DNA of 64,000 nt from Paenibacillus sp. YPG26. GTDB taxonomy: Bacteria; Bacillota; Bacilli; Paenibacillales; Paenibacillaceae. The DNA lies in assembly GCF_023704175.1 (NCBI RefSeq), contig NZ_CP084530.1:82501-146500 (forward strand), given 5' to 3'. Positions 33,451-47,651 of the stretch are shown in pieces; the stretch's first letter is position 1, and every line of letters starts with the position of its first letter. Position numbers and translations under genes: made by a program. The notes beneath the pieces were generated by a model that made no database searches, was not told where the DNA came from, and saw only the letters and a program-made list of their open reading frames with translations.

Positions 33451-33458
33451 GTTATACG
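33451..33458 (+). repeat. Candidate primary attachment site (attI-like)
   Basis: GTTATACG stands 25 bp after the recombinase stop codon, without the palindromic partner half that accompanies every later core site. The bases after it (GTTATACGCAATTGCCCT) are complementary at 17 of 18 positions to the end of the first cassette (GGGCAACTGCGTATAAC, ending at 33891). It therefore marks the left end of cassette 1. Confidence 0.7.
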
Positions 33459-33535
33459 CAATTGCCCTTGAACCCCTGAAGAAGCCAACCCCATGAAATC
33501 GAATATTCGCTATGAAGCAGAATCATAGAAGAAAG

Positions 33536-33607
33536 AATCATAGTTTACTTCGTATTTAGAACGGCCGAGATCGGCACTAGGATCGAATTAACTATGATTT
33601 TTTTAGT
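33536..33607 (+). terminator. Terminator-like hairpin in cassette 1
   Basis: AATCATAGTT at 33535-33544 pairs with AACTATGATT followed by TTTTT; the loop contains an inner GCCGA/TCGGC hairpin. It could stop transcription leaving the recombinase gene. Confidence 0.7.
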
Positions 33608-33639
33608 GCATATGCGGATATCCGGGTGATTTCATGGGG

Positions 33640-33860
33640 CCGACCGATTCGCTAGACTTTCCTAATCCTTACTTGAATTCCTCAACCACTTTAACGGCGA
33701 AGCGTCCCGAGGAACATCGAAGAAGAAGGTTACTGGAGGTTCGAAGAAAGGGTTGGCAGGTAACCTGCATAGGGACGATCACGCCAACCGAGTGGTTTTG
33801 AAAGGCAGGAATTCAAGTTCAAAGCCAAGAAGGGATTAGGAAAGGCGAATCCGTTGGGGC
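33640..33860 (+). ncRNA. Candidate structured noncoding RNA forming cassette 1
   Basis: No plausible gene lies between 33459 and 33883. Instead, nested complementary blocks occur: 33647-33652 with 33845-33850, 33657-33668 with 33833-33844 (12 of 12), 33671-33682 with 33807-33818 (12 of 12) and 33684-33690 with 33791-33797. Inside them, 33703-33708 pairs with 33772-33777 and 33728-33733 with 33760-33765. 33751-33757 (GGTTGGC) matches 33783-33789 (GCCAACC), which would make a pseudoknot. I do not recognise an RNA family, and no reverse transcriptase or nuclease is adjacent. Strand is assumed from array direction. Confidence 0.6.
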
Positions 33861-33883
33861 AAACTCGAAGAAGAGGGCAACTG

Positions 33884-34043
33884 CGTATAACACCACATTC
33901 ACGCTGCGGGGCATACGCCCCTTGGTCTGCCGGGGAATCACAAGGAAGTATGTCCAGGCAGACAACTCTGCGAGACTAAGTCTTCGACCCGGCGCTAACG
34001 CGCCTTAAGCCTCTCGGGTTCGCGAATGCAAGAACGTTATACG
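33884..34043 (+). repeat. attC-like site A
   Basis: R'' CGTATAAC and R' GTTATACG are perfect complements bounding 160 bp. Inside are L'' CATTCACGCTGC and L' TCGCGAATG with unpaired spacers ACCA and CAAGAAC. The central part has GGGGC/GCCCC and CCCGGCGC/GCGCC-type stems. Confidence 0.85.
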
Positions 34044-34077
34044 ACATGGACGTAAAAAATGAAATTAGGTGAATTCG

Positions 34078-34440
34078 ATGAAGATTAAGGACCAGCAAAA
34101 TCTACTTTTTCAAAACTTATCAAATATCAAAAACTATTGGGTAAGCGAATCAACTAGCAGCTTATTACCTGAAGCCGATTTGATATGGTGTAATAACCCT
34201 GAACAAGTTCAAAGTTTAAGTGAAGTTCTAAATAATGATGAACTTCTCAATGCATTTAAAGACTATCAGAAAGAAATTATACAAGGTGTAATACATTCAA
34301 TACTTGTAATGTTTGATGGTGGGGATGCATTAGCTGAGAAGCTTAGAATTGAATTGATAAATGCTGAAACAAAAGAAATATTAAATGAGAATATAGCATT
34401 GCACGAAGATTTTATAGAGTTTTTAATTGACAATGAATGA
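34078..34440 (+). CDS. Cassette 2: hypothetical protein, about 120 aa
   Basis: Acidic soluble protein without a recognised domain (ends ALHEDFIEFLIDNE; central SILVMFDGGDALAEKL). ATG 34078 follows TTAGGTG; GTG 34069 is possible. The gene begins 35 bases after core site A and stops 33 bases before site B, so it fills the cassette. Its base composition is visibly more A+T-rich than the flanking chromosome. The look is that of a small immunity- or antitoxin-like protein, which is only an impression. Confidence 0.75.
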   Translation: MKIKDQQNLLFQNLSNIKNYWVSESTSSLLPEADLIWCNNPEQVQSLSEVLNNDELLNAFKDYQKEIIQGVIHSILVMFDGGDALAEKLRIELINAETKEILNENIALHEDFIEFLIDNE

Positions 34441-34472
34441 AATTGTAAGTTATTCGAAGTAGTCGTCCACGT

Positions 34473-34657
34473 CATATAACACCGCATTACCGCAGCGGGC
34501 CTAACGGCCCTTGGTCGCTGGGGGAATTTACAGGGAAGCATATTCAGCGACACACCCGCACCACCTAAGCACAGTCGCGCCCATTCGGGAGCCAGGACAC
34601 CTGGCTCCATGCTACCTTTAAGGTTGTGGGGCGTCGGGAATGCAACAACGTTATAAG
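34473..34657 (+). repeat. attC-like site B
   Basis: R'' CATATAAC, R' GTTATAAG, 185 bp. L'' CGCATTACCG; L' TCGGGAATG with spacer CAACAAC. Inner stems GGGCC/GGCCC and GAGCCAGG/CCTGGCTC. The cassette-2 ends match: GTTATACGACATGGACG against the complement of CGTCCACGTCATATAAC, 15 of 17. Confidence 0.85.
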
Positions 34658-34717
34658 AAATTGGGGCAAACCCGATAGAAATCAAATTCAAATAAACACT
34701 AACAAGAGGTGGTACCC

Positions 34718-35194
34718 TTGTCACATGTCAGAGTTAGGTGTAGCGGTTTAATAATTAAAGATAATTCAATTCTTTTAGTTGAGTATGATGACAATGGAAT
34801 TCATTACAATCTACCAGGCGGAGGATTAGAACGTGGAGAAACAATAGTTGATGGTGTTACTCGAGAAGTCTATGAGGAAACTCGCTCGGAAGTCGAAGTC
34901 GGTGAATTAGCTCTAATTTATGAGTTTGCGCCCCATAAACAGTCAGGCGACTATAGTGTAAATGAAAGCCATGGATTACATCTTATATTTGAATGCAAAT
35001 TGATAAATAGTTCAATCCCCAAGCTTCCTCCGCAACCAGATCCTCACCAAGTCGCAGTTAAGTGGATTCCAGTGGATAAGTTAGAATCGATACTTTTAAT
35101 ACCGAATATCTCGGAACAAATAAAAGAATATGTAAACAATAGAAGAACTATAGCTCTGATTGAAGATCATCAATTAGAAAGATTGAAGTTATAA
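34718..35194 (+). CDS. Cassette 3: NUDIX hydrolase
   Basis: Hydrolase of nucleoside diphosphates linked to another moiety; substrate unknown. Nudix box reads GGGLERGETIVDGVTREVYEE followed by TRSEV, keeping the catalytic REVxEE core but with Arg where the box usually has Gly. TTG 34718 is favoured because AGAGGTGG lies seven bases upstream; the frame extends to GTG 34709. About 158 residues. Single gene between sites B and C. Confidence 0.9.
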   Translation: MSHVRVRCSGLIIKDNSILLVEYDDNGIHYNLPGGGLERGETIVDGVTREVYEETRSEVEVGELALIYEFAPHKQSGDYSVNESHGLHLIFECKLINSSIPKLPPQPDPHQVAVKWIPVDKLESILLIPNISEQIKEYVNNRRTIALIEDHQLERLKL

Positions 35195-35234
35195 GAAGAG
35201 TAGAGAGTGAGTATTTCAAGGAAGGCCCCAACTT

Positions 35235-35397
35235 CTTATAACACCATATTCATGCATCGGGCCATCCGGCCCTCGGTCCGACAGAGGGATTTCAGGGAAG
35301 TGGGGACAGCCGGACAACCCTGCACTGGCTAAGTCCGTCGGACCCGCGCTTGCGCGCTTAAGCCAGTGAGGGTTCGTGAATACAAGAGAGTTAGCTG
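35235..35397 (+). repeat. attC-like site C
   Basis: R'' CTTATAAC, R' GTTAGCTG, 163 bp. L'' CATATTCATGCATCGGG; L' GGTTCGTGAATAC. Cassette-3 ends match at 17 of 18 positions (GTTATAAGAAATTGGGGC against the complement of GCCCCAACTTCTTATAAC). Confidence 0.85.
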
Positions 35398-35435
35398 AAA
35401 TTGCTGAAATTTATCAAAAAGAGAGAAGGTAAAAA

Positions 35436-36620
35436 ATGAAAGGAATAATAAAGATAATAGAAGCAGTTCGATCAGAGAGTCCACTTTTGGAATTTTTTAG
35501 AGCAGGAATAAAACCGGAAGAAATAAAAGAACAAATTATTAGTGATTTCGATCAGTATTTTAGGAATAAAGATAACCTTTCCAAATATTCTATGACTTAT
35601 TTAGTCTCAGATTGGATTCTTTATAATAAATATCGTGATAATAGTTGGTTCAAACAAAAGTTATTAGAGTCATTGAATATGTATAGAGATGCTTCTAAAC
35701 GTGATGCATTTGCATGTCATGATATTTTTAAGCAATTAATTGATGACCAAATTGAGACAGGGAACCGATTTTGGAGTTTTGTTTTTACAGAGACTAATAA
35801 AAAAGATTTAGAAATATATGAATTTACTCAAATGACAATGAATGATATCGGTCGAATAGTCGAAGGATTGTTTAAGACATTGTTATTAGAATATATCTCT
35901 ATGTACAGATTATCAAAAGGTAAGAAGGTTGTTATAAGTGATATCAAAAAGTTGGATCTTGGAATAATAAATAATGAACTCATTCAAACCTCTGCTTTTC
36001 TCGATTTATTCTCAATTAGATCGTTAAAGCTATCTGATTGGAGAAACATTGCTTATCACCATAATTACTCAATTGAAAGCGATAAAATTAAATGTACTTA
36101 TGGTCCAAAAGATAATCGAAACACTATATTGCTAGAGAAAGATGAATTATGGGCTGTTTTGCTTGAAATATCAAGAATACTTGATTTGCTTAACCTCACC
36201 CATAAATTCTATTTTTATGATAATGACACTGAAATACTTCAGGGGTTTGATCCTGACTCTATTAGGGGAGAAGCAAGAACGGAAATTTGGTTTTTAACGT
36301 TCGCATCTGCGTTAGTTGCTCAAGGATTTGACATTATTTCATTTGAAACTAGCAAAGAAATTACAAAATTGATAGTTAGAGAAACTATTATTGATTCTGA
36401 TAAAAGAACTAGAGCGATACATTCTTCACAATTTACATACAATTTATGGTACTATACATCCTCGGTTAAATTGGAAGTTGAATATAGGGATTTAGAAAAC
36501 GTCCCATACTTAAGAGCATCTACAACAAATGAAATATGTGAAAAGATAGGAAGTAAAGAGAAGCCTTTCACTTATCTTGCTGAGTTTATTAACTTAGAGA
36601 TTTTAGAGAATGATGCTTGA
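35436..36620 (+). CDS. Cassette 4: hypothetical protein with HEPN-like motif
   Basis: A 394-residue, lysine- and isoleucine-rich soluble protein. The segment around residues 198-212 (LKLSDWRNIAYHHNYSIE) contains R203-x4-H208, the RNase motif of HEPN domains, in a helical setting with a polar residue after the arginine. That would suit a toxin or defence ribonuclease, but the rest is unrecognised. ATG 35436 follows GAGAGAAGG. It is the largest cassette gene before 41 kb and very A+T-rich. No partner gene is present in the same cassette. Confidence 0.75.
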   Translation: MKGIIKIIEAVRSESPLLEFFRAGIKPEEIKEQIISDFDQYFRNKDNLSKYSMTYLVSDWILYNKYRDNSWFKQKLLESLNMYRDASKRDAFACHDIFKQLIDDQIETGNRFWSFVFTETNKKDLEIYEFTQMTMNDIGRIVEGLFKTLLLEYISMYRLSKGKKVVISDIKKLDLGIINNELIQTSAFLDLFSIRSLKLSDWRNIAYHHNYSIESDKIKCTYGPKDNRNTILLEKDELWAVLLEISRILDLLNLTHKFYFYDNDTEILQGFDPDSIRGEARTEIWFLTFASALVAQGFDIISFETSKEITKLIVRETIIDSDKRTRAIHSSQFTYNLWYYTSSVKLEVEYRDLENVPYLRASTTNEICEKIGSKEKPFTYLAEFINLEILENDA

Positions 36621-36640
36621 AGGTTTTTCATGGATGTCAT

Positions 36641-36664
36641 TGATGAATACAAAACCGTTAGGTG
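36641..36664 (+). repeat. Truncated attC-like site (3' half only)
   Basis: GATGAATACAAAACCGTTAGG keeps L' (TGAATAC), the spacer and R' GTTAGGTG, but no R''/L'' half exists between the preceding stop codon and here. The left half appears deleted. The core still starts cassette 5, whose far end is complementary to it (CCTTGG with CCAAGG, plus the core). Confidence 0.65.
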
Positions 36665-36718
36665 AAACCTTGGAAAGCTTGTTAAAAACCAATTCGTTGC
36701 AAGTTCAAGGAGCAAATC

Positions 36719-37189
36719 ATGGATAAAGACGCATATTTTAAAAACCTTGAAGAAATCATAACTGACCCAATATTTATCGCCTCTTCAAAGGAAGATATTG
36801 ATGAAGATATCAGTAACAATATGTGGTGCATTTCATTAGAACAAGAATTGGCAAGTCAAATAAATATTAATGATTTTGTGAACTTCCTTAGTTCGGTAAT
36901 AGATAATCGACAAAACCAAATAAGAGCATTAAATGGACAGAATGGAATGACTTTTTATCTTTGGTTTGACTGGATGGCAAGCCAATTGAGGTTTAATTTA
37001 ATTTCTAATATTTATGATAAGCTACCTTTTTGGTGCGAACTTGAATTACTGGATAGAATGGAACCGATAATTGAGGAATTCTTGGCATATCCATTCTTGA
37101 ATGGGCTTCCAAGTGGAGGCTATTCTGATGGATCAGAAGAGAAACCGTATGTATTAAAAGTCTATATAAAGATATTGAATGTGGAGTAA
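36719..37189 (+). CDS. Cassette 5: hypothetical protein, 156 aa
   Basis: Acidic soluble protein with aromatic motifs (TFYLWFDWMASQLRFNL) and no family I can name. ATG 36719 follows CAAGGAGC with good spacing. Single gene between the truncated site at 36641 and site D. Confidence 0.75.
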   Translation: MDKDAYFKNLEEIITDPIFIASSKEDIDEDISNNMWCISLEQELASQININDFVNFLSSVIDNRQNQIRALNGQNGMTFYLWFDWMASQLRFNLISNIYDKLPFWCELELLDRMEPIIEEFLAYPFLNGLPSGGYSDGSEEKPYVLKVYIKILNVE

Positions 37190-37207
37190 TCAGGATGTCC
37201 AAGGCAT

Positions 37208-37354
37208 CCCATAACACCGTATTTACGCTGCAGGGCTATCGCCCCTCGGTTCCCGGATGTATAATAATGGAATAAGCTCAGACAACAAACGCCCCAGCCG
37301 AAGATAAGAGCTATCTAAGGCTGGGGCGTTTTGTGAATACAAGAACGATAATGA
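37208..37354 (+). repeat. attC-like site D with long internal hairpin
   Basis: R'' CCCATAAC; L'' CGTATTTACGCTGCAGG; L' TTGTGAATAC; R' degenerate (CGATAATG). The centre has a near-perfect stem, AACGCCCCAGCC with GGCTGGGGCGTT (37267-37332 region), around AAGATAAGAGCTATCT. The same hairpin recurs in sites N and O. A TGTATAAT hexamer-like block precedes it. Confidence 0.75.
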
Positions 37355-37388
37355 AACCCACTATAACTTACCTTTTGGAGAGCATCCA

Positions 37389-37781
37389 ATGATAAATAGT
37401 CTAGTTGAACTAAGGAATAACGATGAGTGTATTCAAGGAAGCTTTATTTATGCATTACATGAAGAAGATTGTTTTGATGAAAGATTGTATTGGAAATTCT
37501 ATAACTCTGTTTTGGAATTATCTATTTATTTTGGGGACAAGGAGCACGATCCCCAGATCACTAGAATGATAATTCATACACACAACTACTTTTTGAAGTC
37601 GTTGATATGGAGTTATTCGCCTAATGATGCAAGTCGTATTAAGAACTTACCGCATGACAAGTTACATCTTTATGTTGAGAGACTTTGTGTAAGGGTGGAG
37701 TATGGCTATTTTGAAAGACAGATTGTTGACGAAGAAGGTCTTAATGAAGATCTTATGAACCCGTATTACGAACTTAATTGA
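37389..37781 (+). CDS. Cassette 6: hypothetical protein, possibly Imm41-like
   Basis: A 130-residue acidic protein containing GSFIYALHEEDCFDERLYWKF and later SYSPNDASRIKNLP. The combination reminds me of Imm41-type immunity proteins, but I hold that weakly. ATG 37389, with TTTTGGAGAGC just upstream. Single gene between sites D and E. A free-standing immunity gene would fit a cassette array that collects protective functions. Confidence 0.65.
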   Translation: MINSLVELRNNDECIQGSFIYALHEEDCFDERLYWKFYNSVLELSIYFGDKEHDPQITRMIIHTHNYFLKSLIWSYSPNDASRIKNLPHDKLHLYVERLCVRVEYGYFERQIVDEEGLNEDLMNPYYELN

Positions 37782-37807
37782 AAGCATATTCTAAGAAGAG
37801 TAAACAT

Positions 37808-37910
37808 CAGATAACCCCCGCACTCACACTGCGGGCCGCTGTCACATCTCTTGGTCCGCCCCATTGGGGCTTAAGGTTCTCGGCTCCGCGAACACCCAGA
37901 AAGTTACCCC
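37808..37910 (+). repeat. attC-like site E
   Basis: R'' CAGATAAC, R' GTTACCCC, 103 bp. L'' CACTCACACTGCGGGC; L' CCGCGAACACC. Inner GGGGC/GCCCC arms. The R boxes are poorly complementary, so it is more diverged than A-C. Confidence 0.65.
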
Positions 37911-37959
37911 GAAAGCAAGGCAAGTTCTTTCTAATTAATAAATACTGGGAGGGATTACA

Positions 37960-38514
37960 ATGAAGATAGAAGATATATTTAGTGACCTACCTACCCTGGA
38001 AACCGAGCGAACAATTCTCAGGAAGATTGATCTTGAGGATATTCAAGATATTTATGCTTACTGTAGTGATGAAGAAGTATCAAAGTACACAACGTGGGAA
38101 GTTCACAGGAAAATAGAAGATACTAAAGGATTTGTTAATTATGTTCTAGGCAAGTACACCAACTGTCAACTCAGTCCCTGGGGAATCCAAGATAAGAATA
38201 CAGGTAAATTAATAGGCACTTGCGACTATGTGAATTGGGATATTGATAATTATAAGGCTGAAATTGGGTATGCATTGTCTAGGAAACATTGGGGACAGGG
38301 GTATATGACAGAATGCGTAAAAAAATTAATTGAATTTGGATTTGTAAGCATGAATCTGAATCGCATTGAAGCTAAATGTATTCTGGACAATATTGGTTCA
38401 TCCAGAGTTATGGAGAAATCAGGGATGAGACTAGAAGGGATTTTAAAAGAGTACATTTTTAATAAAGGAAATTTTCATGACATAAAAATATACTCCATAA
38501 TTAGGGAAAAGTAA
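37960..38514 (+). CDS. Cassette 7: GNAT acetyltransferase, RimJ/RimL-like
   Basis: A 184-residue acetyltransferase of the subfamily that includes RimJ/RimL: LETERTILRKIDLEDIQDIY at the N terminus, IGYALSRKHWGQGYMTECVK for the acetyl-CoA loop, and CILDNIGSSRVMEKSGMRLEG at the end. Substrate cannot be told. ATG 37960 follows GGGAGGG. Fills the cassette between E and F. Confidence 0.9.
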   Translation: MKIEDIFSDLPTLETERTILRKIDLEDIQDIYAYCSDEEVSKYTTWEVHRKIEDTKGFVNYVLGKYTNCQLSPWGIQDKNTGKLIGTCDYVNWDIDNYKAEIGYALSRKHWGQGYMTECVKKLIEFGFVSMNLNRIEAKCILDNIGSSRVMEKSGMRLEGILKEYIFNKGNFHDIKIYSIIREK

Positions 38515-38546
38515 GTTTAACTGATTAGTTTGAGAAGTCCTTGCCA

Positions 38547-38674
38547 TCGATAACATCGCATTCCCCAGAAGGCCTAACGGCACCTTCGCGTGATAAATTA
38601 CCGGTGAAGCGTATTTGAGCAGCTCACCACCTAACCATAGTACCAACTAGTCGGGAGTGCAGCTACGTTATGTG
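38547..38674 (+). repeat. attC-like site F
   Basis: R'' TCGATAAC, R' GTTATGTG, 128 bp. L'' CGCATTCC; L' GGGAGTGCAG. Cassette-7 ends share GCAAGG with CCTTGC just outside the core. Confidence 0.7.
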
Positions 38675-38726
38675 TAATTTGCAGATCCTTTTCTTTAATG
38701 CTTTTCCTAAGAAAGGTAGACATCGA

Positions 38727-39257
38727 ATGTTATCCTTATTACTAATTGTAGTTATTCTAATTATTCTTATGATTAAAAGACCTATATCGATTAAATCTTC
38801 TAAAATATTTTTATATTTGTCTAAATTATCATGGTATCAGAATCCATTCCTATGTGGTCTATTTGTTTCACTCGTGAATTTAATTCTATTTATATCTGTA
38901 ATCGGGTTATCTCTTTTATCAGTATTACTAAGTCTTGGATTTGTATGGATGCTTTTTCCTATTTTGGGTGTCGTAATAAATATATGGTTCTGGATACAGG
39001 TAGGAATGACATGGGGAGACCAAAATGAGGGAAGAATAGTAACTGCGTTAATTGGAGGTGCATTTTATTGGGTCGTATTTTTATTTTTTATTTATAGGTA
39101 TGTTACGCTAACTCCCCAATTTGAAGGTGACGATACTTTTATGACGGCTATTGGCTTATTTATGGGGATACTTATTTCTTTTATAGCTGGGGTATTATGC
39201 ATTTGGGCAATATTATATTGTTCAAGATTAATCAATAAAGACAGTAACTATGCCTAA
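38727..39257 (+). CDS. Cassette 8: multi-pass membrane protein
   Basis: About 176 residues with four to five strongly hydrophobic segments (near 3-16, 42-62, 66-85, 100-120 and 140-165). No family recognised. ATG 38727 after AAGAAAGG is preferred to upstream ATG 38670, which falls inside the attC-like site F. The stop codon is immediately next to site G. Confidence 0.7.
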   Translation: MLSLLLIVVILIILMIKRPISIKSSKIFLYLSKLSWYQNPFLCGLFVSLVNLILFISVIGLSLLSVLLSLGFVWMLFPILGVVINIWFWIQVGMTWGDQNEGRIVTALIGGAFYWVVFLFFIYRYVTLTPQFEGDDTFMTAIGLFMGILISFIAGVLCIWAILYCSRLINKDSNYA

Positions 39258-39320
39258 CATCATATTCATGTATCGCAAACTTACGGGAGTGAGAATTGTT
39301 ATATACAACAACGTTAAGTG
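39251..39320 (+). repeat. attC-like site G (short)
   Basis: R'' TGCCTAAC, R' GTTAAGTG, only 70 bp. L'' CATATTCATGTATCGC; L' GTTATATACAACAAC. The variable central stem is nearly missing. Confidence 0.6.
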
Positions 39321-39406
39321 AAATTTGATTTAGTGAAAGAAAGTGGTAATTGGTCTAGGAAAAGCGGGATTTGTAATTGAGAGAATGATTGAGCAAACTG
39401 ATGAGA
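39321..39406 (+). other. Gene-less mini-cassette or cassette remnant
   Basis: About 90 bp between R' of site G and R'' of site H. A short open frame reads VVIGLGKAGFVIERMIEQTD and runs on into the site, but lacks a ribosome site. It may be a decayed cassette. Confidence 0.4.
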
Positions 39407-39588
39407 CGATAACAGCGATATGGCCAAGAGAGCTAAGATGATACCTGTAACTTCCGTTCGGCAGAGGTATCTCGGAGGAAGCGGTAGCAACCGGATAACC
39501 CTGCACTGGCTAAGTCCTCGTGGGTCTTGCAATCCATAAGCAAGTGAAAGTTCATGGATACAACAACGTTAGACGAAATCGTTAGACA
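39407..39588 (+). repeat. attC-like site H with doubled core
   Basis: R'' ACGATAAC; L' GTTCATGGATAC; R' GTTAGACG at 39568-39575, with a second GTTAGACA 13 bases later at 39581-39588. The doubling of GTTAGAC-AAATC could record a tandem insertion or slippage. Confidence 0.6.
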
Positions 39589-39611
39589 AAATCAGAAGAA
39601 AGGCTTAAAAA

Positions 39612-40181
39612 ATGAAATCAGAACACCATTTCACAGATAGTCTCGAATACTTGTCTCATGGGAGTACAAGACAGAAGGAAGTATATCAAATACTTACTGA
39701 GCTTAATATCTACGAAATGCTTAGCGACTTCTCACCAATTCTTGTTGGGACGATCCCTATACAAATAGATATTCCTGATAGTGATCTAGACATCATCTGT
39801 GAAGTTTATGACTTCAAAAGCTTTGGAGATCTACTGGATAGACATTTTAAGTCAATGAATCAATATAGTTCTTCGATTAAGACGGTAAATGAAGTGCCAA
39901 GAATCGTATGTAACTTCGAGTATAAGGGTTGGTTGATTGAAATATTTGGTCAACCAGTACCAACTCAAATGCAGAATGGATATAGGCATATGATAGTCGA
40001 GAATCGTATACTTGCCATTTGTGGGGACAAATGCAGACTTAAAATAAGAAACTTGAAAAAGTTAGGATTAAAGACTGAACCAGCATTTGGTGTATATCTA
40101 AATCTCAATGGTAATCCATATGATGTTCTCTTAGAAATGTACGAATGGAATGAGCAAAAACTAAAAAAATATTTGAGATGA
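39612..40181 (+). CDS. Cassette 9: DUF4269 nucleotidyltransferase-fold protein
   Basis: A 189-residue protein with the DUF4269 hallmarks: LVGTIPIQIDIPDSDLDIIC (S-D-L-D acidic pair of the nucleotidyltransferase fold), WLIEIFGQPVPTQMQNGYRHM, and KKLGLKTEPAFGVYLNLNGNPYDVLLEM. Function unknown; likely transfers a nucleotide or is a relic of such an enzyme. ATG 39612 follows AGAAAGG. Confidence 0.88.
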   Translation: MKSEHHFTDSLEYLSHGSTRQKEVYQILTELNIYEMLSDFSPILVGTIPIQIDIPDSDLDIICEVYDFKSFGDLLDRHFKSMNQYSSSIKTVNEVPRIVCNFEYKGWLIEIFGQPVPTQMQNGYRHMIVENRILAICGDKCRLKIRNLKKLGLKTEPAFGVYLNLNGNPYDVLLEMYEWNEQKLKKYLR

Positions 40182-40190
40182 TTGCAGATA

Positions 40191-40277
40191 CACATTAGCA
40201 CCACCCAACTGCATCGCGGCCATTCACTACGTTTGCTTAAGGTGGTGGAGACGTCGTGAACACGAAAAAGTAGCTGA
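40191..40277 (+). repeat. attC-like site I (degenerate)
   Basis: ACATTAGCACCACCC on the left and GTAGCTGAAATG on the right, with L'' CTGCATCGCGG and L' CGTCGTGAACAC. R'' and R' have lost the AAC/GTT identity. GCTTAAGGTGGTGG pairs loosely with CACCACC. Confidence 0.5.
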
Positions 40278-40727: not shown

Positions 40728-40764
40728 AAAGTTCTGTAAAAGTTGATTCGAGAGGATCGCACAT

Positions 40765-40914
40765 CACATAACACCATATTCACGCATCGGCAAACGGGCC
40801 CCGTAACACCAGGTTGTTTCTGAGGAATTAGAAGCAGCCGGACAACCCTGAACTGGCTAAGTCCTTCGGACATGGGGCATGCGGTGAGGATTAGTGATAC
40901 AACAAAGTTAGAGG
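40765..40914 (+). repeat. attC-like site J
   Basis: R'' CACATAAC, R' GTTAGAGG, 150 bp. L'' CATATTCACGCATCGG; L' GGATTAGTGATAC. Inner ACCCTGAACTGGCTAAGTCC block is shared with sites C and H. Confidence 0.75.
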
Positions 40915-41011
40915 AAGCCATCGCAGAATAAATTCCTAGAAACATTTAAAAATAGTTAATCAATAATACTGATGGGTACAAAAACCAATAAGTCACTGGA
41001 GGCAAACTATA

Positions 41012-41362
41012 ATGACCCCTATTTTAAACCAAATCGGTACTGTATTTATACCTGTAAGCAACATCGAGAAGGCACGTGATTGGTATTGTGATATATTGGG
41101 ACTTCCTGTCGACAGAGAGATACTATATGGACATTTGTATGTGGTGCCTATGAATGGAACTGGGATTGTTTTAGATAGCAAAATCTATTCAGAAGATAAT
41201 ATATTTAGGACTCCCGCATTTCACTTGAACACTAATAATATTGAAGAAGCTTATGAGTTTATGAAGTCAAAGAATGTGAACCTAACTACACAAATAGAAC
41301 ACAATCAGTGGTTTAACTTTAAAGACCCAGATGGAAATCAGTTAATGGTATGTAAGTGCTAA
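41012..41362 (+). CDS. Cassette 11: VOC family protein (glyoxalase fold)
   Basis: A 116-residue single-module VOC protein: IGTVFIPVSNIEKARDWYCDILGLPV at the N terminus and WFNFKDPDGNQLMVCKC at the C terminus. The family includes metal-dependent dioxygenases, isomerases and drug-binding proteins; the metal ligands cannot be assigned securely. ATG 41012 follows TGGAGG. Confidence 0.9.
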   Translation: MTPILNQIGTVFIPVSNIEKARDWYCDILGLPVDREILYGHLYVVPMNGTGIVLDSKIYSEDNIFRTPAFHLNTNNIEEAYEFMKSKNVNLTTQIEHNQWFNFKDPDGNQLMVCKC

Positions 41363-41426
41363 AACAATTTGATAGAAGTGTAAATAGATAAATTAGTTTT
41401 CATAAGTAATTAGAAGGCGATGGCAA

Positions 41427-41599
41427 CATCCAATACCGTATTCACGCATCGGGCCGACTTCGTCGACCTTTGGTCCGCCAGATAGATTTAGGGGAAGTGG
41501 AATCAGGCGGATACACCTATGGGTTAACTGCACTGACGCACAGCCGACCACTCTGTGAGCTCAAGTCTCTCGGCGTCGTGAATACGGTAACGTTGGATG
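41427..41599 (+). repeat. attC-like site K
   Basis: R'' CATCCAAT, R' GTTGGATG, 173 bp. L'' CGTATTCACGCATCGGG; L' GTCGTGAATACGG. Cassette-11 ends share GCCATCGC with GCGATGGC, eight bases beyond the core. Confidence 0.8.
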
Positions 41600-41623
41600 A
41601 AATGACGGAATTTTATCTGAAAG

Positions 41624-42628
41624 TTGGTGCTCCTTTCGTTGTTTGAATTTAGTAGAATCAATACTAATGCTTTTGATGATCTTAATGAATACGTTATGAA
41701 GATTAAGAAGATTATATCTGCAACAGCAGCTTCAACCTATATTATCCATCATGATCGGATCGTGAATGAATGGTATTCCGGACTTCATGATACTAGCACA
41801 AACAGTCGGTTGGTTGATGAGAAATCCCAATTTAACATTGCTTCTATAAGAAAGACTTATTTGGGTTTTGCGGTAAGTCTAGCAATTTATGAAGGAAGAA
41901 TAAAAAGTCTAGATGACCCTGTTAGTGCTTATTGGAATGATATTGATAGCACGGTAACTATTCGCCATTTGTTAACACATACTCATGGTTTGGACAGCCA
42001 AAACAAATGTTTGTTTCCTCCGGGAACTTCGTGGAGCTATAACAATTCCGGTGTGAGTCTGCTAATAAAAATCATTCAAAAGTTATATGGAATACCATTA
42101 TCTGAATTATTAGAAGAACGGGTATTTTCACCTTGTGGATTTACGAGCACAGGTTGGAGAAAGAAAGAATCTGAACGGTTGGTTTGGATAAATGAAGAAT
42201 ATGTTGATGATCAAGGCAACGAGCCGAACTTATTTGTAAGTACGAAGGAACTGGCTTACTGGGGTTATTTACATATGAATAAAGGTTCCTTTAATGGTAA
42301 GCAAATCATTCCTCAAGGTGTATTTGAGCAAGCAACTACAATCATCAGTCCCCAAAGCTTAACGAAAGAATTGCCTCGTAGTGGATTTTTCTGGTCTGTA
42401 CAGGATGAACCGCGCTTAAAGGCAGAATTAGGTGATAAGTTGCCGAGAGGCTCGTATCAGTCTTTAGGTATAACTGGCTGTGTATGTCTTGTTATCCCTA
42501 CATATAAAACTGTTGCAATCAGAATGTATAATCAGATTGAACCGAATCCCAATAATTACGATTATATAACTGATATAAAAACATTTGGCAACCTATTATG
42601 CAGATGTATAGAAAAGTTTCGCATGTGA
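41624..42628 (+). CDS. Cassette 12: beta-lactamase-fold serine hydrolase
   Basis: A 334-residue protein of the class C beta-lactamase/esterase/DD-peptidase superfamily (PF00144). Motifs: SIRK (SxxK) in FNIASIRKTYLGFAV, YNN (YxN-type) in SWSYNNSGVSLL, and RHLLTHTHGL. No signal peptide is evident, so a cytosolic esterase-like role is more likely than antibiotic hydrolysis. The TTG start at 41624 has no strong ribosome site; later in-frame starts are possible. Confidence 0.88.
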   Translation: MVLLSLFEFSRINTNAFDDLNEYVMKIKKIISATAASTYIIHHDRIVNEWYSGLHDTSTNSRLVDEKSQFNIASIRKTYLGFAVSLAIYEGRIKSLDDPVSAYWNDIDSTVTIRHLLTHTHGLDSQNKCLFPPGTSWSYNNSGVSLLIKIIQKLYGIPLSELLEERVFSPCGFTSTGWRKKESERLVWINEEYVDDQGNEPNLFVSTKELAYWGYLHMNKGSFNGKQIIPQGVFEQATTIISPQSLTKELPRSGFFWSVQDEPRLKAELGDKLPRGSYQSLGITGCVCLVIPTYKTVAIRMYNQIEPNPNNYDYITDIKTFGNLLCRCIEKFRM

Positions 42629-42648
42629 TTGTAGGATGTCGATTACTT

Positions 42649-42785
42649 CAGCTAACGATGCATTCACGCTGCGGGGCTTACGCCCTTTGGTCGTCCGAGT
42701 ATAATTACCGACTAACCGCATCGCTTCCTGCTCCTGATGGAGCCTTAAGACGGGGGACATCGGGAGTAGAAGAGCATTATATGCA
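42649..42785 (+). repeat. attC-like site L
   Basis: R'' CAGCTAAC; L'' TGCATTCACGCTGCGGGGC; R' altered to CATTATATGC (GTT to ATT). Inner GGAGCCTTAAGACGGGGGAC arm. Cassette-12 ends pair with G-U tolerance (GTTGGATGAAATGA against the complement of TTACTTCAGCTAAC). Confidence 0.7.
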
Positions 42786-42828
42786 ATACCCCGAAACCCT
42801 TTTATTGTGGGAACAGAGGAGTGGTGAA

Positions 42829-43479
42829 TTGATTAAAGCAGTAGTCTTCGATCTCGATGGAACACTATTGGACCGAGATACCTCTCTAAAACAATTTGTT
42901 TTGAATCAACACGATCGAATAGAAGCTTTACACTCAGTCGATAAAGTTGAATATGCAGCTCGATTTATTGAGTTGGACAGCAAAGGCTATATCTGGAAGG
43001 ACAAGGTGTACTTTTCTCTTATTAATGAATATAGAATTAGTGGAGTTTCTGCGGATGATCTGTTAGCAGATTATATAAAGAATTTTAGGTATCATTGTAC
43101 TCCGTTTCCAAATCTAAAGCAGTTGTTAGACTTTATTACTTCCAAAGAGGTTAGGATAGCTATGATTACGAATGGGTTTGGTGATTTTCAACTAGGCAAT
43201 GTTGACGCTTTAGGGATCAGTGACTATTTTGAGTTCATCATGGTATCGGAGCTTGAGGGAATCAGGAAACCGGATGAAGAGATTTTTAGGAGAGCGCTTA
43301 GCAGGCTAGGTATTAAAGCTTCTGAAGCCATCTATGTAGGAGATCATCCTGATAACGATGTAAAAGCAAGTATGCGTGCCGGGATGAAGGGAATCTGGAA
43401 GTCAGATTCGTATTATAAGGACGATTTTAATCGTGATGGGGTTATATACGATTTACTGGACTTAAAGAGTCTCTTGTAG
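42829..43479 (+). CDS. Cassette 13: HAD-superfamily hydrolase
   Basis: A 216-residue phosphatase-like protein. Motif I is VVFDLDGTLLDRDT, motif II ITNGFGDFQ, motif III Lys in GIRKPDEEIF, and motif IV VGDHPDNDVKA. A helical cap of about 70 residues places it in subfamily I. TTG 42829 follows GAGGAGTGG; the frame extends upstream through site L, where no start is credible. Confidence 0.9.
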   Translation: MIKAVVFDLDGTLLDRDTSLKQFVLNQHDRIEALHSVDKVEYAARFIELDSKGYIWKDKVYFSLINEYRISGVSADDLLADYIKNFRYHCTPFPNLKQLLDFITSKEVRIAMITNGFGDFQLGNVDALGISDYFEFIMVSELEGIRKPDEEIFRRALSRLGIKASEAIYVGDHPDNDVKASMRAGMKGIWKSDSYYKDDFNRDGVIYDLLDLKSLL

Positions 43480-43504
43480 GTTGATTTGGTGAAGTGGGGT
43501 GCAT

Positions 43505-43651
43505 CATATAAGGCCGCATTCACGCATCGGGCTGCAGTTACGTCTCTTAGTCCGCATACAGGAATTTCAAAGAGGTTGAACCAGACCCTGCACTGGTTAA
43601 ACACACTGTGGCCGTTCTCTTCGGCCCTTGAAACTGCAGCAACATTATACG
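43505..43651 (+). repeat. attC-like site M
   Basis: R'' CATATAAG (AAC changed to AAG), R' CATTATACG, 147 bp. L'' CGCATTCACGCATCGGG; L' AAACTGCAGCAAC. Cassette-13 ends share TTATATG and ACCCC with GGGGT. Confidence 0.7.
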
Positions 43652-43724
43652 ACATACTTCTAATGCCTTTCAGTGCTTAAATATAAAAGAACCGTGATAT
43701 ACTTTTATTGGAGGTGGAAAGTTA

Positions 43725-44015
43725 ATGTCAATTCATTCATTGATTGAATCGAATCATAATACAATACTTAATATAGCCAAATCGAATGGGGCAAAGAAAA
43801 TTAGCTTATTCGGTTCTGCTGCTCGAGGAGAAGATCATGCAGAGAGTGATATTGACTTTTTAATTGAATTTGAGGAGAATAGGTCTCTTTTTGACTTAAT
43901 AAGGCTTAAGAATCAACTAGAGGATCTTTTAAATAAACCAGTAGACATCGTAACGGAGAATTCAGTCCATTGGAAGATGAAGGATCATATTTTAAGCGAG
44001 GCCATACAATTATGA
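43725..44015 (+). CDS. mntA: Cassette 14a: MntA-type nucleotidyltransferase antitoxin
   Basis: A 96-residue minimal nucleotidyltransferase: FGSAARGEDHAESDIDFLI with Gly30-Ser31 and Asp42/Asp44. In characterised HepT/MntA pairs this enzyme adds AMP to a tyrosine of the HEPN toxin. ATG 43725 follows GGAGGTGG. Its stop overlaps the start of the toxin gene (ATGA), giving coupled translation. Confidence 0.92.
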   Translation: MSIHSLIESNHNTILNIAKSNGAKKISLFGSAARGEDHAESDIDFLIEFEENRSLFDLIRLKNQLEDLLNKPVDIVTENSVHWKMKDHILSEAIQL

Positions 44016-44341
44016 GGGATGATAAAGTCTATCTAACCCATGTGCTAGAATGCATTCAGTATATATTTGAATATACACAAACGGGGAAAGAAGAGTTTTT
44101 TAAACAAAGAATAATTCAGGACGCAGTAGTCAGAAATCTTGAGATTATTGGAGAAGCAACAAAGAATATTTCAAAAGAATTTAGAAGTCAAAATCCAGAC
44201 ATCCCGTGGCGTGAAATGGCAGGCTTACGGGATGTTTTAATTCATGACTATTTTGGCGTAGATAACCATATTGTATGGAGCGTTGTAAAGAACGAATTGC
44301 CTGGATTACTAAAACAAATTGAAGAGCTTTTGAAAGCATAA
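44012..44341 (+). CDS. hepT: Cassette 14b: HepT-type HEPN RNase toxin
   Basis: A 109-residue HEPN protein with the active motif R73-x4-H78-x-Y80 in LRDVLIHDYFGV; Tyr80 is the residue AMPylated by MntA in studied systems. It starts at ATG 44012 overlapping the mntA stop by one reading step. Toxin-antitoxin pairs are common in cassette arrays and are thought to limit cassette loss. Confidence 0.92.
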   Translation: MRDDKVYLTHVLECIQYIFEYTQTGKEEFFKQRIIQDAVVRNLEIIGEATKNISKEFRSQNPDIPWREMAGLRDVLIHDYFGVDNHIVWSVVKNELPGLLKQIEELLKA

Positions 44342-44371
44342 CTCGAAGAAGAGAGGTACATCGTGCATCGC

Positions 44372-44608
44372 GGTCGCCCTTCGTGCTTAAGGGGGGAGTA
44401 GCGTAAACACAAAAAACCGTATTCACGCTGCAGGCTATCACCTCTCGATTACGAAGTGTATAATCATGGAAGAAGCTCAGACAACAAACGACCCAGCCTA
44501 AGATAAGAGCTATCTAAGGCTGGGTCGTTTGTTGATGGCATTTTACAAGAAATCGGTGAGAGAAAGTTAAGATCCACTTGGACATTGTGAATTTGATAAC
44601 GTTATACG
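44372..44608 (+). repeat. Composite attC-like site N with long hairpin
   Basis: Two site fragments are fused. A left piece (GTGCATCGCGGTCGCCC to GTAAACACAAAA, 44364-44416) lacks R''. A second piece has L'' CGTATTCACGCTGCAGG, the repeated hairpin AACGACCCAGCC/GGCTGGGTCGTT (about 44484-44533) and R' GTTATACG at 44601-44608. A TGTATAAT block precedes the hairpin. This fills the gap 44342-44642. Confidence 0.65.
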
Positions 44609-44642
44609 CTATACCTGAAACTGAAGGAGGAAAGCGATATAC

Positions 44643-45068
44643 ATGAACATAAAATTCTATGATAATCTCTTGTCCGCAGATGATTATTTATTTATCCATC
44701 AAGCAATGAACTATGATCTTGAACCCAGGGAGCAGATAGAGCAAGCATTATCAAGAAGTATACGTACAGTCACAGCTAAAGACGGCGATAAAATAGTTGG
44801 AATGGGCCGGCTAGTGGGTGATGGTCTTATGTACTGTTATATTCAAGATGTTCGTGTCTTGCCGTACTATCAAAATAAAGGTATAGGAAAGGCCATAATT
44901 AACAGAATGATAGAGTATGCTCGCCAAAATGGATTGCCTAACACAGTTATAACTATTGGTTTATCATCAGCAAAAGGGGCTGAGCGCTTTTATGAAAACT
45001 TGGGTTTTATCAAACAACCATGCCATGATATGGGCCATGGGATGTATATAGATATGGAAATTGATTAG
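44643..45068 (+). CDS. Cassette 15a: GNAT acetyltransferase
   Basis: A 141-residue acetyltransferase: IQDVRVLPYYQNKGIGKAIINRMI forms the acetyl-CoA site and ITIGLSSAKGAERFYENLGF the C-terminal strand and helix. ATG 44643 lies after GGAGGAAAG. It is followed by the remnant of an attC-like site at about 45081-45122. Confidence 0.9.
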   Translation: MNIKFYDNLLSADDYLFIHQAMNYDLEPREQIEQALSRSIRTVTAKDGDKIVGMGRLVGDGLMYCYIQDVRVLPYYQNKGIGKAIINRMIEYARQNGLPNTVITIGLSSAKGAERFYENLGFIKQPCHDMGHGMYIDMEID

Positions 45069-45080
45069 TAATTGATTAGA

Positions 45081-45122
45081 GAATGCTTCACCCGATGCAG
45101 TAACAGTTGGTTACGTTGGATA
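45081..45122 (+). repeat. attC-like remnant between two cassette genes
   Basis: CACCCGATGCAGTAACAG and then TTACGTTGGATATG, a core-like R' at 45115-45122 without a matching R''. It suggests that the GNAT and the next NUDIX gene were once separate cassettes. Confidence 0.45.
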
Positions 45123-45157
45123 TGTAATATTCAACTGAAAAAAAGGGGAGATATCGT

Positions 45158-45631
45158 GTGGGAATGTCAGATTATTATAAGAAACTTCGAGAGAAGATTG
45201 GAAATCAGTTGCTTTTTATGCCAGCAGTAGCAGGTATCATAAGAAATGAACAAGGTGAAATTCTTTTTGGTAGGAAGCACAAAGAAGAAAACTGGGGCTT
45301 AATCGCCGGGGCTATCGAGATTGGAGAAACTCCTGCCCAAGCTATGATAAGAGAAGCATGGGAGGAGACTGGACTCAGAATTGAACCTGAAAGAATCATT
45401 GGGGTATATGGGGGAGAAGAGAGGCGTTTTACATATAGGAATGGTCACCAAGTTGAGTACTTAACAATCGTGTTTGATTGCAAAATCATGGAAGGGCGGC
45501 TAAACCCAAATAATGAAGAGATGAAGGATCTAAAATTCTTTTTTGAAGACCAAATACCATATATTTCAAACAAATACCCGAAAAACATATTTAGTTCAGA
45601 GCAAGGAGATAGAGCACATTTCGAAAGATGA
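45158..45631 (+). CDS. Cassette 15b: NUDIX hydrolase
   Basis: A 157-residue NUDIX protein with box GAIEIGETPAQAMIREAWEE followed by TGL, fully canonical. The upstream FMPAVAGIIRNEQGEILFGRK strand and later VEYLTIVFDCKI fit the fold. GTG 45158 follows AGGGGAG. Substrate unknown. Confidence 0.92.
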   Translation: MGMSDYYKKLREKIGNQLLFMPAVAGIIRNEQGEILFGRKHKEENWGLIAGAIEIGETPAQAMIREAWEETGLRIEPERIIGVYGGEERRFTYRNGHQVEYLTIVFDCKIMEGRLNPNNEEMKDLKFFFEDQIPYISNKYPKNIFSSEQGDRAHFER

Positions 45632-45647
45632 ATTGAAGAGGCTAGTT

Positions 45648-45799
45648 TACATTATATAGCCCTATACTCAAATCTAAAGGCTATCGTCCCTCGATTGCGA
45701 AGTGTATAATCATGGAAGAAGCTCAGATAACAAACGACCCAGCCTAAGATAAGAGCTTTCTAAGGCTGGGTCGTTTCGTGAATGCAAAGACGTTATAAG
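45648..45799 (+). repeat. attC-like site O with long internal hairpin
   Basis: The left half is degraded (CATTATATAGCCC). It keeps GGCTATCGTCCCTCGATTGC, the third copy of the hairpin (AACGACCCAGCC/GGCTGGGTCGTT, about 45732-45777), L' TTCGTGAATGC and R' GTTATAAG at 45792-45799. Confidence 0.7.
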
Positions 45800-45865
45800 A
45801 AATTGGATTTTACATATTATAGATAATCGCAATCTCCATTGATTGTGAGTGAGGGAGAAATGTAA

Positions 45866-46753
45866 ATGAAACCAGTACTTAGAACATATGACCATACTTA
45901 TTATGACATTGTTTGTGATTTTCTAATCGAATTGTCCAAAGAAAATAGTAAATATATCAATTGGAACTGGGCACGTTGGGAATGGATGATGTATCATCCT
46001 GAGTTTAATAATGACTTGATTGATAATATAGGATTATGGTTCTGTAATGATGAATTGGTTGGTATGGCAACCTTTGACCACTACTTTGGAGAAGCATGTA
46101 TTGCTGTTAAGAGTGGTCATATAGAACTTGAGAAAGAAGCATTAGAATATGCTCTTTCTACTTTTAGCGACGAGAATGGTCTAGGCATTGCAATAAATGA
46201 TGCTGATATACATTCTATTGAGTTATTACGTAACTATGGCTTTGTAAAAAAGGAGGGAAATATCGAAAATATACTTGAACTTAATCTTGAGGAAATCAGC
46301 TTCGACTATACTCTTCCACCAGAAATTATAATAAAAAGTCTAAATCCAGAGACGGATTTGCATAAACATCACAGAACTTTATGGAAAGGATTCGATAACG
46401 GCGGTGATGCGGATCTTCCCTGTGATGAAATCACCATGAATAAGCAGAAAAGAATGCTGTCAGCACCACATTTAAATACATACCTGCACACGGTTGCAGA
46501 AAATGAAGAAGGTGAGTATGTTGCCTACTGTGGATGCTGGTACAATGCGAAAACGGATTATGCTTATGTGGAACCCATCTGTACAATTCCTTCCTATCGA
46601 GGAAAGGGACTGGGTAAAGCGGTGCTTTTGGAAGCACTGAAGAGATGCAATGATCTAGGTGCTAAAAAGACATATGTTATTTCTGACTCCGCTTTTTATA
46701 AGGCATTAGGCTTTAATCAATATTCACGGTATACATTCTACTGGCATCAATAG
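45866..46753 (+). CDS. Cassette 16: double-domain GNAT acetyltransferase
   Basis: A 295-residue protein of two GNAT-like halves. The N-terminal half (about 1-135) has lost a clear acetyl-CoA loop. The C-terminal half has VEPICTIPSYRGKGLGKAVLLEAL and TYVISDSAFYKALGF, a complete site. ATG 45866 follows GAGGGAG. Substrate unknown. Confidence 0.88.
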   Translation: MKPVLRTYDHTYYDIVCDFLIELSKENSKYINWNWARWEWMMYHPEFNNDLIDNIGLWFCNDELVGMATFDHYFGEACIAVKSGHIELEKEALEYALSTFSDENGLGIAINDADIHSIELLRNYGFVKKEGNIENILELNLEEISFDYTLPPEIIIKSLNPETDLHKHHRTLWKGFDNGGDADLPCDEITMNKQKRMLSAPHLNTYLHTVAENEEGEYVAYCGCWYNAKTDYAYVEPICTIPSYRGKGLGKAVLLEALKRCNDLGAKKTYVISDSAFYKALGFNQYSRYTFYWHQ

Positions 46754-46793
46754 GATGTTGAGCTAACTAGCAACCCGTAGAAGGCGCAGACAT

Positions 46794-46858
46794 CTAATAA
46801 CACTGCCTTCTCGCATCGGGCCCGGTGAAGGTTTCGTTGAATGCAAGAACGCTAACTG
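46794..46858 (+). repeat. attC-like site P (short)
   Basis: R'' CTAATAAC, R' GCTAACTG, 65 bp. L'' TTCTCGCATCGGG; L' TCGTTGAATGCAAGAAC. Central stem reduced to GCCTTC/GAAGG. Confidence 0.6.
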
Positions 46859-46895
46859 CGATTGCTGCAAAAAAAATTCTATGTGAGGTGTATCA

Positions 46896-47489
46896 ATGAA
46901 GTCAGTCTCTCCGATGGATGCTTACCTTCAGGCATCCGAGCACATTGATTACTATGATGATCAAATTCAAGCTCTTATTCGCTCATTTAATCAAAATAAT
47001 GAAATCGAAAAAGTTACAGCAGTATTTCATTTTGTACGGGACAAGATTCATCATTCATATGACATTGATTCCACGAACGTAACTAGGACAGCATCGGAAG
47101 TTCTACAACAAGGACATGGGATCTGTTATGCTAAATCGCATTTGTTTGCGGCTCTTTTGCGGGGAATGGGCATACCCTCCGGGATTTGTTATCAGAGACT
47201 GACACTTTATGATCAACCGGAAGACGGCCACTGCATACATGCGTTGAACACTGTATATCTAAGGGATCTGAACAAATGGATAAGACTTGATGCAAGGGGT
47301 AACAAGAAAGGGATAGATGCTCAGTTTTCTATTGATGAAGAGAAATTAGCTTTTCCCATCAGGGAGGAATGTGGCGAGAGAGACTATTGGATCAACTATG
47401 CCGAACCCCATCCGGAAATTATCAAGACACTTGCAACCTATTCAGACTGTATTGAGATGTACCAACAAGGATTACCGGATCAATTGTAA
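46896..47489 (+). CDS. Cassette 17: transglutaminase-like protein
   Basis: A 197-residue cysteine-protease/transglutaminase-fold protein. The likely triad is Cys in GHGICYAKSHLFAALLRGMG, His in HCIHALNTVYL and Asp in WIRLDARGN. Bacterial members can be amidases or proteases; the target is unknown. ATG 46896 follows GTGAGGTG. No signal peptide. Confidence 0.87.
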   Translation: MKSVSPMDAYLQASEHIDYYDDQIQALIRSFNQNNEIEKVTAVFHFVRDKIHHSYDIDSTNVTRTASEVLQQGHGICYAKSHLFAALLRGMGIPSGICYQRLTLYDQPEDGHCIHALNTVYLRDLNKWIRLDARGNKKGIDAQFSIDEEKLAFPIREECGERDYWINYAEPHPEIIKTLATYSDCIEMYQQGLPDQL

Positions 47490-47515
47490 GAGCAGTTCAG
47501 GAAAGGCTGCAGCAT

Positions 47516-47651
47516 CTGATAAAAAAATATGTGCACGCCTGGGTGGATCAGCTGCCTCGCCCTGCCCCACCTAACCGGGAGTCTTAGATAAGGTTATCTG
47601 TGCTTCCCTCACCCTTGAGGGGGAAGATTCGTGAATGCAAGAATTTTGCTG
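47516..47651 (+). repeat. attC-like site Q (last clear site)
   Basis: R'' CTGATAAA and R' TTTTGCTG are both decayed, but L' TTCGTGAATGCAAG and inner CCCTCACCC/GAGGGGG arms persist. Cassette-17 ends still share TGCTGCA with TGCAGC(A). Confidence 0.55.

Follow-up and report, generated by a model that had tools for sequence, protein, structure and literature searches.

The stretch of the Paenibacillus sp. YPG26 genome analysed here (contig NZ_CP084530.1, positions 82,501 to 146,500) spans 64,000 nucleotides, and we refer to it as the window. The host genome is a single contig of 3.97 Mb. The window carries a gene for a tyrosine recombinase of 377 amino acids (P0001; 32293..33426, + strand), followed by an attI-like element and a gene-cassette array. 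The recombinase is composed of a HARP-like N-terminal domain with a W-x6-W motif (32302..32500, +), a SAM-like core-binding domain, and a catalytic domain that lacks the insert specific to integron integrases (IntI). The attI-like element (33427..33454, +) reads TCGTGGATTTAGT|GTTA, and related forms are located at the equivalent place in relatives. In addition to this half site, the recombinase strand has 18 junction sites, all within 33427 to 47648. They separate collinear units that mostly carry one or two genes each, and units 1 and 9 are without an open reading frame (ORF) of 80 amino acids. A first-pass annotation had described about 17 palindromic sites between collinear one- or two-gene units after a tyrosine recombinase, which agrees with the 18 sites that were read and scored.

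The junction sites are 57 to ~193 nucleotides long. Their arms consist of TAAC, 4 nucleotides and TATTCACGC on the 5′ side, and of CGTGAATA, 7 nucleotides and GTTA on the 3′ side. Sixteen of the 18 sites were located with a position weight matrix (PWM) of the 3′ arm, and two (37903 and 43644) were located by eye. Most sites have arm scores of 20-34, compared with best scores in 20 shuffles of the 64 kb that average 11.4 and 14.4 and reach maxima of 15.9 and 20.6. Because the PWM was trained on window sites, the other genomes described below provide the independent test. The same annotation had proposed that the sites follow the R″-L″-L′-R′ plan of attC, and the site arms, their pairing and the cloverleaf fold are all in agreement with this proposal.

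A unit begins with the reverse complement of its own terminal sequence. The match extends from position 0 to roughly +17 and is interrupted by a constant mismatch at +9/+10. This was assessed in the window and 20 other loci, where 181 sites were paired by PWM. Counted from GTTA, the variable positions are +4..+6 and +11..+16, and there a unit's own ends agree in 68-88% (146 cassettes); agreement drops to 48% at +17 and is gone at +18. The two flanks of one junction agree at 24-50% (n=181) versus 25-49% for random pairs. Thus each flank pairs with the other end of its own unit and not with its junction partner, meaning that the sites are chimeras of two units. The signal is diluted because some of the pairs used here and in the folding analysis span a missed site. 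Judged from their sequences, the units look like circles that were once closed, and the own-end stem should be usable as a sequence-only marker of past circles.

Within the window, own-end pairing (at least 8 of 12 positions) is present in seven of the 15 units with hand-placed ends and missing in eight, where its loss is partly due to small shifts. Units 1, 2, 3 and 5 score 12, 10, 12 and 10 of 12, units 12, 13 and 14 score 10, 8 and 9, and cassette 17 scores 6. Preservation is best close to the recombinase, which would be expected if this is where new units enter, and the array looks decayed in its distal half. The site at 36657 is reduced to its 3′ half, and degenerate distal sites are found at 37812-37906, 40195-40273, 45650-45795 and 47517-47648.

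Outer pairing covers 12.4 of 18 positions when a site is written in its circular form versus 4.3 in the genomic junction. When the two forms are folded, stability favours the circular one in 116 of 138 units and the genomic one in 16, with no difference in 6. Class 1 integron cassettes differ in the own-end stem. In 15 such cassettes (12 distinct), own-end agreement at +11..+17 is 31%, which is the random level, and several extend the R box to about +11; the best match at +4..+7 was used to place their ends, probably wrongly in some cases. Even the eight distinct cassettes with 4/4 at +4..+7 still give 17/56 at +11..+17. The first dozen bases therefore differ from canonical attC in degree, and those beyond them differ in kind.

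The short sites (70-95 nucleotides), which come from 12 loci and include none from the window, appear to form a cloverleaf with an R stem, an L stem and three hairpins. A total of 23 of the 26 collected short sites were used, with two near-duplicates and one 72-nucleotide site with fewer hairpins excluded. In this set, 96.2% of cells are paired versus 91.5% when shuffled, and 12 of 29 pairs have changed on both sides, where shuffling gives 6.0 and sliding gives 1-3. The shuffles contain the same number of pair types, and the structure was derived from the same sequences on which covariation was scored. A covariance model built from other genomes recovers five of the 18 window sites, with E values of 6e-12 to 2e-5. 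Its three matches in the whole host genome all lie inside the array (150 of 1562 first-look candidates were scored), and it finds nothing in six class 1 integron loci or beyond the array (L059). Outside Paenibacillales, the model has a match at 6284-6356 of a Nitrospinae contig (L075), precisely where the own-end test had placed a junction, and gives no match in 11 other loci searched.

The attI-like element is not peculiar to the window. The first unit starts 28 to 291 nucleotides past the recombinase match in 37 of 44 loci, with an attI-like element ahead of it in 27 of 30 loci from Paenibacillales and 10 of 14 from elsewhere, the latter having been picked because they contain units. By eye, TTTACGAAGTTCGTAAATAAGAC or a related form precedes GTTA in most Paenibacillales and variable sequence follows it; the sequence to the left of GTTA diverges more in a few loci, including the window and L049. 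Short dyads are present at the attI position in Altarchaeum, Nitrospirae, Flavobacterium and Clostridium. An attI-like element is found next to the recombinase, and cassettes are presumably inserted at that place.

Relatives of the recombinase (E values up to 1e-60) were counted in three overlapping samples that include the host genome: 84 of 295 family members carry one, as do 51 of 198 genomes at the level of the order and 26 of 398 at that of the phylum. A scan with a model made from the window sites, as the first-pass annotation had suggested, found at least two sites downstream of the recombinase in all 20 further family loci that were fetched (2 to 19 within the stretch). These loci were drawn from the 84 and lie mostly on long contigs. 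Nearly all of their sites are on the recombinase strand, and one locus (L057) has two strong sites on the opposite strand. Within the genus, 35 of 40 genomes contain the half-site pattern and 2 of the 40 contain its backward control. A canonical IntI over the curated cut-off is found in one of 299 genomes of the phylum. Half sites also cluster in three genomes where no recombinase passed 1e-60 (G152, G128 and G238) and in one where none is listed (G277), and these four genomes possibly carry integrase-less arrays.

Similar layouts are found in Nitrospirota, Bacteroidota, Spirochaetota and archaeal contigs. Among the named relatives, which are the best 80 of 585, 57 of 79 have at least 1.2 kb available downstream. 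A first unit lies within 400 nucleotides of the recombinase in 9 of 10 of these from Paenibacillales; for the others the count is 13 of 24 where the W-x6-W motif is present and 5 of 23 where it is missing, some of the latter having truncated frames. The background is 7 of 637 upstream positions. Thus 18 of the 47 named relatives outside Paenibacillales, which were not picked for having units, carry one at this distance. Chains of at least two units occur in Brucepastera (six in a row), Flavobacterium, Halanaerobacter, Atribacteria, Altarchaeum and Nitrospirae contigs. Many of these are contigs of metagenome-assembled genomes (MAGs), and host names are given as recorded. A window-type recombinase followed by a unit is present in Altarchaeum (L111) and in Micrarchaeota (L077). 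Integrons are known from Treponema, and the recombinases of Brucepastera (L116) and of two Treponema MAGs (L133 and L139) are without the IntI insert. A de novo repeat scan of 33 loci revealed clear downstream families in a minority. In 22 of the 79 named relatives, the contig ends less than 1.2 kb past the recombinase frame, often at less than 300 nucleotides, and arrays may break assemblies.

Among the matches listed in a plasmid search are distant integrases of Bacteroidota and rhizobia, and then IntI1. The nearest of these plasmid relatives (L172; H1, Chryseobacterium plasmid) has 39% identity and is followed by mostly co-oriented small genes, and it is possibly a mobile form. Phage records and viral contigs gave more distant integrases alone among the matches listed. 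The first-pass annotation had proposed a mobile-cassette platform outside its usual range, which now seems too modest given the presence of the recombinase in 84 of the 295 family genomes and the recurrence of the layout in other phyla.

Exchange and reordering of cassettes are seen between genomes of different species. Of 221 cassettes in 30 arrays, 37 have a relative in the array of another genome, defined as at least 72% identity over at least 60%. Counted in both directions there are 62 shared-cassette pairs, 38 of which start exactly at the GTTA of the target, where the site density is 0.0006 per base; 34 of these 38 are found at another rank. Eight of these pairs, chosen because their ends align, show an identity of 0.84-0.96 inside versus 0.5-0.8 outside (random is 0.61), with the exception of one 30-nucleotide site arm at 1.0. 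The sole window cassette with a match is cassette 3 (NUDIX), which is 84% identical to the rank-9 cassette of another genome (G086, locus L048) and has sharp ends. Recombinase genes with nucleotide identities of 99.3, 98.2, 97.1 and 96.6% are accompanied by 0, 0, 0 and 1 shared cassettes, and a pair at 94.4% (L040 and L057) by one; these counts come from fetched partial stretches with 3 to 12 cassettes per array. The same genes in the same order among relatives, which the first-pass annotation had named as evidence against its reading, were thus not observed across species. The longest ORF is forward in 178 of the 221 cassettes and reverse in 34, and no ORF of 50 amino acids is present in the remaining nine.

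Taken together, the recombinase, attI-like element and cassette array are very probably a system that works like an integron. Limited pairing in the window units and the unmatched loci of other phyla do not lower this confidence, since its basis is the set of 20 other loci. Each cassette is likely cut out as a circle by the recombinase at a folded attC-like site, and the excised cassette would then be inserted next to the attI-like element. The substrate is presumed to be a folded single strand with crossover at GTTA, and the N-terminal HARP-like domain might read the folded site in place of the missing IntI insert.

The array is integron-like in its anatomy, yet the domain test that defines a canonical integron goes against it. 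The spacing between GKGxKDR and HxLRHS is 55-63 residues in all 91 relatives that could be measured (110 were taken and 19 were not measurable), compared with 100 in both IntI controls. Thus the insert of about 40 residues around patch III is missing from every measurable window-type recombinase, and a canonical integron was rejected on this test. An ordinary integron whose integrase has drifted, and which would simply be a canonical member in a new host, nevertheless deserves consideration. It would account for the shared layout, the GTTR/YAAC boundaries and the R-L-L-R plan. The window recombinase also matches TIGR02249 at 205.6 bits, and its SPLDR-like C-terminal end resembles that of IntI4. 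However, that score is under the 265-bit cut-off, and the missing insert, the HARP-like domain and the additional +11..+17 stem, not seen in the 15 class 1 cassettes compared, all argue against drift. In a tree, the IntI clade (100/99) is separate from the clade of the window recombinase (97/94), although IntI sampling is narrow. Most IntI rows in this tree are near IntI1, and the deep order of IntI and window-type recombinases is disturbed by three long Xer branches. We therefore consider a drifted integron to be unlikely, though worth keeping in mind.

The first-pass annotation had offered either a chromosomal integron or an independent look-alike. The look-alike fits best: the cassettes, the attI-like and attC-like sites and the turnover resemble those of an integron, whereas an integron in the strict sense is contradicted by the absent insert, the HARP-like domain of relatives and the cloverleaf of short sites with its own-end stem. 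As in canonical integrons, an attI-like element is proximal to the recombinase, cassettes are mostly forward and turn over, own ends are complementary in the R box, and sites are imperfect palindromes. Unlike the fetched class 1 loci, where intI1 and the cassettes are opposed, the window recombinase gene and its array are co-oriented. The short sites of the window type are also set apart by their cloverleaf, a ~17-nucleotide own-end stem, a fixed mismatch of 2 nucleotides, and spacers of 4 and 7 nucleotides.

A survey of archaeal integrons (PMC9668308) defines IntI by its extra domain and describes archaeal arrays that are mostly clusters of attC sites lacking an integrase gene (CALINs). It took its IntIs from IntegronFinder, which demands an IntI-specific profile, and window-type recombinases would escape the survey for this reason. 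Its arrays in archaeal contigs are reminiscent of the Altarchaeum and Micrarchaeota loci, and we speculate that window-type recombinases serve archaeal CALINs. An "integron-like subgroup" of tyrosine recombinases has been described (PMC8138268), in which the insert is called essential for integron function; in the passages considered, no arrays are named beside insert-less members, and "HARP" does not occur in its text. Integrons are extremely rare in Bacillota according to another report (PMC9024848), with one complete Firmicutes integron and a few CALINs. That integron, from Limnochorda pilosa, shares a Bacillota host with the window array but was found by IntegronFinder. Among the titles listed in a search of open-licence literature, which did not cover preprints, there was no paper on such arrays.

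A bolder proposal is that these loci represent a second integron class in Bacillota, Bacteroidota, Spirochaetota, Nitrospirota and archaea, in which a HARP-fused tyrosine recombinase takes the place of IntI. Such a recombinase would read cloverleaf DNA with an outer stem that exists only in the circle, so that free and inserted cassettes would differ in structure and insertion would be favoured over excision. Many "integrase-less" attC clusters would then be its arrays. The arguments for and against this proposal seem to us about evenly balanced. In either case, a cassette platform lies behind a recombinase that is carried by more than a quarter of the genomes sampled from one Gram-positive family and also occurs in other phyla. 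Such platforms have probably escaped notice because detection methods look for the IntI-specific domain. They give access to a large pool of genes that has yet to be read, and they allow the origin of integrons to be tested by asking whether the insert or the HARP domain was the later gain.

The remaining explanations fare worse. The recombinase might be an Xer-type dimer resolvase or a phage integrase that is unrelated to the adjacent array. Its top curated family is indeed NF040815 (XerA), at 211.7 bits, although the cut-off of 220 is not reached and the recombinase falls under every cut-off of the curated XerC, XerD and XerA profiles. The close and recurrent spacing between recombinase and first unit in several phyla, and the presence of further Xer-like recombinases elsewhere in the host genome, make this reading very improbable. 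We give almost no credence to the idea that the units are small transposons with terminal inverted repeats which inserted repeatedly next to one another: intact units do have inverted ends of ~17 nucleotides, but these differ among units and agree within one unit alone, whereas a sequence-read repeat should be common to all, and the units abut in mostly one orientation beside one recombinase. This candidate was rejected on the confinement of end agreement to within a unit. Equally hard to credit is that the palindromes are RNA elements, terminators or repetitive extragenic palindromic-like repeats of an ordinary variable region; covariation fits RNA too and three sites contain a terminator-like hairpin, but the outer pairing joins the far ends of a unit across its gene, over hundreds of bases, and does not join the flanks of a palindrome, and cassette swaps end at GTTA. 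An Rfam search of 30000-53000 gave no family at gathering score, and this candidate was rejected because all matches are sub-threshold and confined to one hairpin.

The HARP-like assignment of the N-terminal domain is based on profile matches. A profile from 30 N-terminal domains retrieves the HARP domain of SMARCAL1 (4o66) with an E value of 4e-4. Pfam HARP (PF07443) matches 17 of these 30 aligned domains at E values up to 0.1 (best 6e-7) and 29 of 62 whole relatives at E values up to 1 (best 2e-5), and gives no match to the N-terminal domain of the window recombinase alone. From the 46 segments available, 17 had been dropped before alignment as near-duplicates or, in several cases, as lacking the second or both tryptophans; the latter include L105, L116, L125, L128, L137, L138 and L139. 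Foldseek and VIA-align searches with a model of the whole recombinase gave catalytic-domain matches, and HARP was absent among the 50 matches listed. In SMARCAL1, HARP is a domain that binds fork DNA.

SOS control of the integrase through LexA is common in integrons but not universal. The LexA box GAAC-N4-GTTC has no exact copy within ~350 nucleotides of the estimated recombinase start in 30 loci, and occurs with one mismatch near that start in three of the 30. A degenerate tract of short-period repeats (AAGGCTA / AAGACAG units; 30785-31065) is located upstream of the window recombinase. In two other loci (L058 and L052), the recombinase frames match the query partially, and the matches in the genome of the latter (G090) contain stops. 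Some arrays, such as those at these two loci, may be stranded.

All cassettes of the window are listed on the + strand. Cassette 1 (33451..34035) ends in a site at 33888-34039. Cassette 2 (34036..34649) carries an ORF at 34069-34440 and a site at 34477-34653, and cassette 3 (34650..35389) carries its NUDIX gene at 34709-35194 and a site at 35239-35393. Cassette 4 (35390..36656) has an ORF at 35436-36620 and the half site, at 36639-36660. Cassette 5 (36657..37346) has an ORF at 36719-37189 and a site at 37212-37350, and cassette 6 (37347..37902) has an ORF at 37389-37781 before the first of the degenerate sites. A GNAT gene (37960-38514) occupies cassette 7 (37903..38666; site 38551-38670), and cassette 8 (38667..39312) has an ORF at 38670-39257 and a short site at 39255-39316. 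Unit 9 (39313..39567) has a 3′ half site that extends to 39571 and an uncertain 5′ arm (39410).

Cassette 10 (39568..40269) encodes a DUF4269 protein (40181 being the end of a gene that starts at 39612) and ends in the second degenerate site. Cassette 11 (40270..40906; site 40769-40910) has an ORF at 40341-40727 with an HTH_17 match under the Pfam cut-off. These are followed by cassette 12 (40907..41591; site 41431-41595) with a glyoxalase (41012-41362), cassette 13 (41592..42775; site 42653-42779) with a beta-lactamase-fold protein (41624-42628), and cassette 14 (42776..43643; site 43509-43647) with a HAD-like hydrolase that ends at 43479. The ORF for this hydrolase is listed from 42598, and a start at 42829 is likely. 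Cassette 15 (43644..44600; site 44412-44604) is formed by a single MNT/HepT-type toxin-antitoxin pair (43725-44341). Cassette 16 (44601..45791; site about 45650-45795) carries GNAT (44643-45068) and NUDIX (45158-45631) genes, cassette 17 (45792..46850; site 46798-46854) a GNAT gene (45866-46753), and cassette 18 (46851..47644; site about 47517-47648) a transglutaminase-like gene (46896-47489). Similar GNAT, NUDIX and toxin-antitoxin cargo also occurs in canonical integrons, and toxin-antitoxin pairs of this kind occur in large chromosomal integrons. With 10 cassette proteins as input, PADLOC recognised the MNT-type protein, through PDC-S09 and less strongly through PDC-M05A models; a weak mad1 match was the only other result.

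Three sites share a copy of ~109 nucleotides (37233-37341, 44432-44540 and 45678-45786), with 83-91% identity to the middle one. The copies contain a strong GC-rich hairpin that resembles an intrinsic terminator, and the middle copy has a sub-threshold Rfam match to mir-9457. Beyond the last site, the region 47650-51600 contains cassette-like genes, such as a nucleotidyltransferase (47684-48301), without recognisable sites apart from a remnant seen by eye near 50476, and is perhaps a decayed tail of the array.

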